This document shows, in pieces, positions 4,565 to 11,541 of a DNA stretch of 36,090 bases. How positions within the stretch are numbered: the stretch's first letter is position 1; each line of letters opens with the position of its first letter. The notes under the pieces are model-generated. The model made no database searches, had not been told where the DNA came from, and saw only the letters and a program-made list of their open reading frames with translations. This DNA is from Nitrospira sp. UW-LDO-01 (GTDB lineage: Bacteria; Nitrospirota; Nitrospiria; Nitrospirales; Nitrospiraceae). The stretch lies in the NCBI GenBank assembly GCA_002254365.1, contig NIUT01000146.1, forward strand, positions 6,153-42,242, given 5' to 3'. The position numbers and the translations under genes are program-made.

Positions 4565-6178
4565 GTGCGTGATCCGCAGTTCTATGCGCTTCCGGCGAAA
4601 ACGCGGGCTGCGAACGGCAATGTTCGTGTGATGGGGTTCCCTCCCATCGGTATCATGTCCTTATCATCCGTGATCAAACAAGCAGGGCACGAATGTGTGC
4701 TCTTCGATCAGGCGAACCCCGATACGCCGAACCAGGTCATCATTGACCGGATCAGCCAGGAGCAACCGGCGCTCGTCGGGCTTAGTTTTCTCAGTACCAC
4801 CAGCTATCCCTACGCCAAGATGCTGGCGCGAGAGATTCGCGCCACCAACCAAAAGGTCAAGCTCGCCTTCGGCGGCGTGTTCGCCAGCTTGAATGCCTCG
4901 TTGGTAAAATTACAATGTCCCGAAGTTGATTTTGTGTGTCGTGGCGACGGCGAGCAGTTGCTGCTCGATCTGTTGGCGAACTTGGAAAACCCCCAAGCTG
5001 TCGCAAGCCTGACATGGATGAAGGATGGCCAGGTCGTCCAGAATCCGAATCGCCCCACGGAACGGCACCTGGATCAGTGGCCCTTTCCGGATCGCGAGAG
5101 CCTGGAGCTCGACTATGTTGAATCCATGCCGCTGGATGTTCCGGTAGTCCTCTCCATGAGACGGTTCACAACGATGCAAACGTCTCGGGGATGTCCCTGG
5201 CCGTGCATCTTCTGCGACATCCCGATTTTCAACGAGGGGAAGTGGCGAGCCCGAAGTCCTCAGCATGTAGTCGCAGAGCTCAAGCACCTCGAAGCACTCG
5301 GCTACGAGTCCGTCGGGTTCGTCGATGATCATTTCTTACTTCAGCCCAAGCGGATCGAGGCGATTTGTAACGGAATCATGGACGAGAAGCTGTCGATCCG
5401 CTGGGGCATCGAGGGGCGTGTCGATTCGGTCGCCCAACATCTGTTTCCCGCCATGGCGAAGGCCAATTGTGGCGCAATGATGTTCGGAATTGAAAGCGGC
5501 AGCCAGAAGATTCTCGATCGCTTGAAGAAGGAACAGACGCTGGATCAGGTCACAACCGCCGTTGAAAATGCGAAAAAAGCCGGCGTAGAAATTGTGCATG
5601 GGTTCTTCACGGTGGGCAATCCGGACGAGACGGTCGAGGATATGGAAGCCACCTTCGACTTCGCGTCGGCCCTTCCGCTGGATACGTTTGGGTTCAACCG
5701 GCTCTGCGTCTATCGAGGCACACCCTTGTGGCAGGAGTACGTTAAACGCGGGCTGGTCAACGAAACCACAGATTGGTACAAGTATTTCAAATGTTCAGAA
5801 ATCGATCCGACTTGCCTCTCAGGCGAAACAATCAACCGCGTCAGACAGGCCGGGATCAAAAAGCTCTTTCGCTACAAACTTATCCATTACCCCCGTCAGA
5901 CCGTTCAGCTTCTCCGTCGGTTTTTTCGTTATATGCCGATCCGAGATGTGCTCTATCTCCTGCTCAAACCCTTCATGGGTCAGAAGAAGGGTGCGACGAA
6001 GGCTGAGGTAGTGTCGCGCTTGGTCGAGCATGCCGACATGAAAGATGCGGCGGCGCAGCTGACGCAGGTGTCGGATGAGATGCTGCACAATGTGTTTGAA
6101 GCCTCTCGCCTCGAACGTTTGCAGATCCAGCAAGCCGCAGACGAGTCACGCGAACTGCCGATGGTGCAGTCTCGATAG
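4565..6178 (+). CDS. B12-binding domain radical SAM protein
   Basis: CPWPCIFC (CxxxCxxC) motif, N-terminal cobalamin-binding-like region, GIESGSQKILDRLKKEQT and FTVGNPDET motifs. True start uncertain: GTG 4565 or a non-canonical CTG at 4544. Confidence 0.9.
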   Translation: MRDPQFYALPAKTRAANGNVRVMGFPPIGIMSLSSVIKQAGHECVLFDQANPDTPNQVIIDRISQEQPALVGLSFLSTTSYPYAKMLAREIRATNQKVKLAFGGVFASLNASLVKLQCPEVDFVCRGDGEQLLLDLLANLENPQAVASLTWMKDGQVVQNPNRPTERHLDQWPFPDRESLELDYVESMPLDVPVVLSMRRFTTMQTSRGCPWPCIFCDIPIFNEGKWRARSPQHVVAELKHLEALGYESVGFVDDHFLLQPKRIEAICNGIMDEKLSIRWGIEGRVDSVAQHLFPAMAKANCGAMMFGIESGSQKILDRLKKEQTLDQVTTAVENAKKAGVEIVHGFFTVGNPDETVEDMEATFDFASALPLDTFGFNRLCVYRGTPLWQEYVKRGLVNETTDWYKYFKCSEIDPTCLSGETINRVRQAGIKKLFRYKLIHYPRQTVQLLRRFFRYMPIRDVLYLLLKPFMGQKKGATKAEVVSRLVEHADMKDAAAQLTQVSDEMLHNVFEASRLERLQIQQAADESRELPMVQSR

Positions 6179-9978: not shown

Positions 9979-10374
9979 ATGAAAGAAAAGAAACGTGTTC
10001 CAACCGATGGTGGGCCGATCAAGTGGACGAGTCCTTTCGTCGCCTTGAAGCAGGCAGAACTGCCACATGCTTCATCAACGCAACCTATTTGCAGCCAGAG
10101 CGCTCCGGCCTCCGACGTGCCGAAGAAGAATCGTGGCCGTGTGGACATCCTTCGCCAGACGGCGCATCGCGGGGGCAAGACCGTGACGGTGGTCACAGGG
10201 TTTGTTGGGATTGGTCAGGCGGAGAAAGAATTCCTCGCGAAGCAGATGCAGAAAGTCTGCGGCGCAGGCGGCACGGTTAAAGAGGGACGGATTGAAATTC
10301 AGGGAGATCAGCGTGACGCGGTCGCACGCATTCTCACCAAGGCAGGGTTCCGCCCGGTCTTTGCTGGAGGGTAA
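9979..10374 (+). CDS. yciH: SUI1/YciH-family translation initiation factor-like protein
   Basis: RVDILRQTAHRGGKTVTVVTGFVGIGQAEKEFLAKQMQKVCGAGGTVKEGRIEIQGDQRDAVARILTKAGFRP is a classic SUI1 domain. Confidence 0.92.
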   Translation: MKEKKRVPTDGGPIKWTSPFVALKQAELPHASSTQPICSQSAPASDVPKKNRGRVDILRQTAHRGGKTVTVVTGFVGIGQAEKEFLAKQMQKVCGAGGTVKEGRIEIQGDQRDAVARILTKAGFRPVFAGG

Positions 10375-10547
10375 CGCCTCCCTTGTTCCAGCAGAGACGA
10401 ATACGAGAAGAGGTGGGTATGTGATGGCGAAAGCCAGCCCCCGTACGGACACTCCTATCATTGCGTGATGCTGCACCCTGTGGGATACTCCCAGCCTGGT
10501 TAGGTCCCCCCACGCACGGGTGTCCTCACACCAACCGGAGAGCCATC

Positions 10548-11053: not shown

Positions 11054-11221
11054 GCCACCTATGGCCCAGCGCACCATCCCGACACGTAGTCACCCAGGAA
11101 TGAGGTCCCGTTCCCGTTGCTCATGAAGCCGGCGCGAAGGTTGTCGTGCTGTTTTGACGCAGAGCGGCCACAGTGAATCAGGCAATAGATTGTCTGCGCT
11201 GGAGCCACGGAGGGGAGCCAG

Positions 11222-11245
11222 TTCTGTTGGACATGTCCAACAGAA
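11222..11245. promoter_or_regulatory. Perfect 24-bp palindrome, candidate ParB/KorB or regulator site
   Basis: ttctgttggacatgtccaacagaa; shares core TGTTGGACATGTCCAACA with 11364-11385. Confidence 0.6.
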
Positions 11246-11363
11246 TGCCCTCGCCCTAGAGAGTCACGATCTGGTTCAAGAACATCGATCCCCGACCTCT
11301 TTGAGCTTTGACGAAGACCTCCGCTTAAGCCTGGTCGCATAGCCATGGTCGATCAAGGTATCA

Positions 11364-11385
11364 GTTGTTGGACATGTCCAACAAC
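11364..11385. promoter_or_regulatory. Perfect 22-bp palindrome, second copy of the site
   Basis: gttgttggacatgtccaacaac; bracketed by an outer inverted repeat agcctggtcg (11328-11337) / cgaccaggct (11390-11399). Confidence 0.6.
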
Positions 11386-11541
11386 CTCTCGACCAGGCTC
11401 GCGCGGTTCAAACGAGATTTTGGCGAGATATGAGCGTGTAGAAAAACTGGTGCTAGGAGCGAAAGAATTGTGGCGGGCGAGGATGTTCAGGCTGTCCCTC
11501 TCCCCAGTTTGGATTGAAGAGAGGGACGAATTGATGAAGGA

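Follow-up and report, generated by a model that had tools for sequence, protein, structure and literature searches.

What is the role of two long palindromes that lie behind a parB gene in the genome of Nitrospira sp. UW-LDO-01? The window analyzed here, a stretch of 36,090 nucleotides from one contig of this genome, contains a ParA/ParB operon and two perfect palindromes sharing the 18-bp core TGTTGGACATGTCCAACA (Table 1). A previous sequence-only reading had described palindromes of 24 and 22 bp about 140 bp apart in a non-coding stretch past the parB stop, and had proposed that they serve as a centromere or operator for the adjacent KorB-like protein. The positions and lengths given there were exact: the two core starts are separated by 141 bp, and the span from 157 to 320 bp beyond the parB stop (11542) holds both sites. 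A short ORF on the minus strand (11059-11346) covers the first palindrome. Across the loci compared, however, no ORF over the palindrome stretch is conserved, and the stretch is to all appearances non-coding. With up to three mismatches allowed, the 18-mer matched twice in the window against an expectation of 0.01, and two matches were reached in none of 100 shuffles. In the genome-wide count that had been suggested (3.9 Mb), the exact 18-mer occurred only twice, both times beside the operon; one further match, with three mismatches, was found on a different contig.

Table 1. Positions of the palindromes, the parAB genes and the hairpin in the window.
Feature	Position	Strand	Description
Distal parS-like site (putative)	11222..11245	.	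24-bp perfect palindrome, TTC-TGTTGGACATGTCCAACA-GAA = TTCTGTTGGACATGTCCAACAGAA
Proximal parS-like site (putative)	11364..11385	.	22-bp perfect palindrome, GT-TGTTGGACATGTCCAACA-AC = GTTGTTGGACATGTCCAACAAC
Hairpin GTCCCTCT...AGAGGGAC	11494..11527	-	Between parB stop and palindromes; read from the sequence and the ortholog alignment
parB, KorB-type ParB, 311 aa	11542..12477	-	ParB_N/CTP-binding fold, KorB HTH domain, KorB-like SH3-like C-terminal domain
parA, Walker-type ParA ATPase, 260 aa	12474..13256	-	AAA_31 (3.9e-31), CbiA and ParA-type matches

The parA stop overlaps the parB start, so that a Walker-type ParA and an HTH ParB are encoded in one operon as in class Ia ParABS systems. The parB product matched the Pfam families KorB (7.6e-16), ParB_N (2.3e-15) and HTH_ParB, and its best PDB match in a profile search was RK2 KorB (8qa8, E 2.3e-48). 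The AlphaFold model of ParB was of low confidence overall and poor in the first 120 residues, and its DNA-binding and C-terminal domains alone were used. In the Foldseek comparison, the DNA-binding domain matched KorB 1r71 with TM values of 0.86-0.89 by target length, and the five-strand C-terminal domain matched the KorB C-domain 1igq with an rmsd of 1.0-1.3 Å (TM 0.81-0.87 by target length, E ~0.005). The CTP-pocket motifs GARR and ENLQR are kept. As modelled, the protein has the order of a KorB-type ParB, namely a ParB_N fold followed by a KorB-type HTH and an SH3-like dimerisation domain. The stem of the hairpin behind the parB stop is retained in the aligned orthologs despite sequence changes, and this hairpin is probably the transcription terminator of parAB. 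A SUI1/eIF1-family gene is found at 9979-10374 on the plus strand of the window, and a similar gene (family F14) precedes parA in eight further loci.

The relationship between the palindrome and ParB was analyzed in 147 relatives. ParB orthologs with 80-98% identity were found in 36 genomes of the same genus, together with a split gene in G033. The site is present downstream of parB in 35 of the 37 genus genomes with a close ParB ortholog, at 1-4 copies per genome; conservation next to orthologous parAB loci, which had been proposed as a check, was thus observed. No site was found upstream of parA or parB in the loci from the 37 ortholog-bearing genomes. In the two genomes without the site, the contigs stop 59 and 640 bp past parB, and the first copy lies further out than these distances in several other genomes. 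A lineage-matched palindrome adjoins every testable Nitrospira ortholog. For 27 of the 35 genomes the distance from the parB stop to the first copy is 153-197 bp, and the proximal palindrome of the window aligns with this copy in the 27 orthologous loci. In the alignment of these loci, a 20-bp block, TTGTTGGACATGTCCAACAA, is kept in the otherwise diverged DNA after parB. The spacing of the sites varies from ~85 bp to several kb.

The same link was seen in a sample of the phylum. The exact 18-mer occurred in 28 of 396 genomes, all of the genus Nitrospira and all with the ortholog (28/28), and the ortholog was absent from every sampled genus member that had no site (26/26). None of the 342 sampled phylum genomes outside the genus contained the exact 18-mer. 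The Fisher probability of this association is ~5e-16 if the genomes are treated as independent, but the genomes are related and the co-occurrence counts therefore overstate the independence. Many members of the genus have no KorB-type parAB system. The core, for which wide occurrence away from parAB had been the stated concern, was found in exact copies in the genus only beside a ParB ortholog. One genome (G044, an assembly 83% complete) carries the site on a 4.7-kb contig, and no ParB was found in it. By its location, its exclusivity and its covariation with ParB (see below), the palindrome corresponds to the ParB-specific cis-acting site near parAB that is expected of a ParABS system.

Two groups of matches were rejected as unrelated or unsuitable. 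Exact 18-mers also occur in viral contigs; the stretches fetched around them had no ParA/ParB match, and in three of five contigs the 18-mer lies among repeated 9-mers, TGTTGGACA/TGTCCAACA. Short intergenic arrays of these 9-mers are found in the viral contigs L209, L210 and L212, and in L210 and L212 the array separates a primase/helicase-like gene from the gene that follows. The matches with two mismatches that recur in relatives (TGATGGACATGCCCAACA and TGTTCGGCATGTCCAACA) are not perfectly palindromic and lie at a distance from the parAB cluster.

The sequence-only reading had further noted that the outer flanks of the two palindromes differ and yet stay self-complementary. This holds at position ±10, where the complementary fraction of distal copies was 0.93 compared with 0.59 after shuffling (0/500), but it is not general further out. 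Perfect palindromes of 26-36 bp were found at 12 of 72 distinct sites, against ~2 by a rough estimate. Arm correction by template switching, or selection for cruciforms, are possible causes of this excess. Perfect palindromes of 30-36 bp with differing self-complementary outer arms were seen in L043, L050, L048, L052, L053, L070, L060, L072 and L073.

Long perfect arms of differing sequence at these 12 sites could be taken to mean that the palindromes act as RNA hairpins or transcription terminators instead of protein-binding sites, and a transcript could fold as UUGUUGGA-CAUG-UCCAACAA. The core, however, is constant across the sites and has no compensatory change, as would be the case for a site bound by protein. 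The palindromes are not followed by a T-run, and a separate terminator-like hairpin is already present behind parB. In addition, no Rfam match was found in the window, and the site changes with the ParB lineage. This explanation is very unlikely. Another explanation is that the palindromes are recombination ends of movable cassettes (pdif-like). The sites are separated by variable DNA, tens of bases long at some loci and several kilobases at others, with transposase-like and RAYT-like genes in it. Accumulation of insertion sequences nevertheless explains this variation, sites without a parAB neighbourhood occur on short contigs only, and the sites have no spacer-and-two-arm dif layout. We regard cassette ends as highly improbable.

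Versions of the site with a changed centre were found on plasmids and mobile elements. In the Nitrospira genome G016, a mobile element encodes a relaxase, NikA/MobC-like, replication-initiator-like and integrase proteins and a second, canonical-type ParAB, as well as a KorB-type ParB that is 50-57% identical to the window ParB. Past its parB, TTGGAACGTTCCAA is located at +85 and TGTTGGAACGTTCCAACA at ~+1227; both are the same site with the centre changed to TTGGAAC. The chromosomal and the element systems thus occur side by side in this genome, each with its own version of the site. The closest relative of the window ParB outside the genus is KorB of the PromA plasmids (pIPO2, pTer331, pSFA231 and relatives), which is 55-57% identical over the N-terminal two thirds. 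As in the window, ParA is encoded directly upstream in the PromA partition module (korA-incC-korB), and perfect TTGG-N6-CCAA palindromes are present, on these plasmids in korB and before mobC. Unlike the window, these modules belong to conjugative plasmids, korA precedes incC, the site centre is GTCATGAC instead of GACATGTC, and there are three sites per plasmid. On each of four plasmids, TTGGTCATGACCAA (TTGGTCA) occupies three equivalent places: one within korB, one ahead of mobC and one in or close to traN. Further versions are TTGGTACGTACCAA (TTGGTAC) in korB of pUSP4, with an imperfect copy before mobC; TTGGACGCGTCCAA (TTGGACG) at korB in a Rhizobium alarense contig; and CTTAGTCATGACGAAG, present twice in pAtCFBP6625c, in parB and before mobC. 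Roughly estimated, chance would give ~0.01 perfect TTGG-N6-CCAA palindromes per 40 kb.

The recognition helices differ between the ParB lineages with TTGGACA (Nitrospira chromosome), TTGGAAC, TTGGTCA, TTGGTAC and TTGGACG sites. A search for the palindrome with KorB relatives (40-48% identical) from Sphingomonas, Nitrosomonas and Thauera found none, and some KorB-like relatives at 41-51% identity have no TTGG-type palindrome near korB. Since the site tracks the KorB-type ParB family and varies with the ParB lineage, as a ParB target is predicted to do, it would seem to be the target of ParB. The suggestion of a new class of centromere or operator holds in part. The site sequences appear in no paper of the literature searched, but they fall within a broader family of KorB-type sites, TTGG-N6-CCAA. 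Judged by the same literature, this site family is new, and so is the persistence of a plasmid-type KorB-ParABS in the chromosome of about half of the examined genus members; the KorB protein family and the principle of partition are already known.

The KorB-OB system of RK2/RP4 (IncP-1) resembles that of the window in its KorB-type HTH, SH3-like C-terminal domain, CTP-pocket motifs and, putatively, palindromic operator, and RK2 KorB is a CTP-dependent clamp that is loaded at the operator (PMC11790492). It differs in that RK2 KorB is ~40% identical and is used mainly for plasmid-wide silencing with KorA. The consensus of the RK2 operator OB is TTTAGCSGCTAAA, and that of the canonical chromosomal parS, found near the origin, is TGTTNCACGTGAAACA. 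The core TGTTGGACATGTCCAACA differs from both, in agreement with the sequence-only reading. A search of PromA-type relatives did not detect the RK2 operator.

KorB proteins are transcriptional regulators as well as partition proteins. Because they do both, regulation and a role in plasmid competition stay live rivals of a role in partition. If the palindromes were KorB-style operators, the bound ParB would silence or tune transcription of parAB or of genes nearby, with partition secondary or lost. The KorB proteins of RK2 and IncU are global repressors (PMC7022226; PMC11790492), and the antibiotic-resistance plasmid pHH1107 (L206), with a KorB relative 45% identical, has TAGTCATGACTA at 11 places along its length, an operator-like layout. 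All of the Nitrospira sites, however, are located downstream of parB behind the probable terminator, and no conserved gene adjoins them; parA and parB are the sole genes common to all loci compared. Judged from these arrangements, a centromere is favoured over a promoter operator, and operators of this kind seem rather improbable.

We consider it likely that the adjacent KorB-type ParB loads at the two palindromes, which would thus be parS-like, and that the ParABS to which they belong is an acquired one of plasmid type, now chromosomal alongside the housekeeping ParABS. The proposal of a centromere or operator for the KorB-like protein is supported by the exclusivity of the site and its covariation with the ParB lineage. 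The sites, their uniqueness, the strict link with ParB, the covariation of the site centre, the KorB-type architecture and the mid-replichore location were computed directly. By analogy with the relatives, the 18-20 bp palindrome would be the docking place of a ParB dimer, which would contact it through the KorB-type helix-turn-helix. The docked ParB would bind CTP, close as a clamp and slide onto the adjoining DNA, and ParA may then act on the ParB-DNA complex to position sister loci. ParB binding, CTP switching, spreading and a segregation role are all expected from these relatives. The low copy number at the Nitrospira loci was counted against the loading-site reading, as were the variable spacing of the sites, the many genus members that lack the system and the KorB-like relatives with no TTGG-type palindrome near korB.

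Bacterial chromosomes normally have one ParABS, close to the origin. The housekeeping ParABS (Spo0J type) of the window's genome resembles the KorB-type system in that its ParA-ParB operon is accompanied by two palindromes, each of 16 bp. It differs in that its ParB is 36% identical and of another family, and in that both copies of its parS, TGTTCCACGTGGAACA, are upstream of parA. In two closed genomes, the TGTTCCACGTGGAACA sites lie 127-155 kb from dnaA. The KorB-type locus is 1.16 Mb (G024) and 1.24 Mb (G061) from dnaA in closed genomes, slightly past the middle of one replichore according to the GC skew. In both its sequence and this distance, the KorB-type site is unlike a canonical chromosomal parS. 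The genes flanking the locus (named by Pfam for the window genes, otherwise by sequence inspection) are lineage-specific chromosomal genes, such as those for a CobW-like GTPase, a PAP2-type protein, a radical SAM protein and a transketolase.

The distance from dnaA would also fit a plasmid that integrated and left behind a remnant, in which the ParB-site pair is kept against incoming plasmids (incompatibility or decoy) and not for chromosome segregation. The closest relatives outside the genus are on conjugative or mobilisable plasmids, and the plasmid-like element of G016 carries a sister system. On the other hand, parAB is intact and conserved in the 36 genomes, which indicates selection with its target unspecified, and the different centre of the element's site would limit cross-interference. 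Such a remnant is unlikely, if somewhat less so than operators. Under the preferred reading of parS-like loading sites, about half of the Nitrospira members examined might have two orthogonal ParABS on one chromosome, the usual one close to the origin and the domesticated KorB system as a true second, mid-replichore centromere that would mark a fixed site and position it; we propose this only tentatively and hold it to be doubtful. A plasmid-type system kept across the genus at a non-origin locus raises the question of what a second centromere does on one chromosome. The natural site variants (TTGG-ACA, -AAC, -TCA, -TAC and -ACG), with their matching recognition helices, form a panel for the study of site choice in KorB-type proteins, and the ParB-site pairs could become orthogonal tools for DNA labelling.

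Other ParAB operons with their own palindromes were also seen. The canonical-type ParAB on the mobile element of G016 (L077, G016:C7:98000-116000) and that of L214 (G037:C14:12000-30000) both have GTTACGCGCGTAAC upstream of parA (TGTTACGCGCGTAACA in L077), and L214 contains an interrupted KorB-type remnant at 4972-5292. In two further Nitrospira ParAB operons, pairs of palindromes lie upstream of parA: AGTTGCGCGCGCGCAACT at 10376 and 10814 of L215 (G057:C2:42000-60000), and ATTCGATATCGAAT at 10099 and 10422 of L217 (G078:C7:228000-246000). These are apparently further types of ParB-specific sites.
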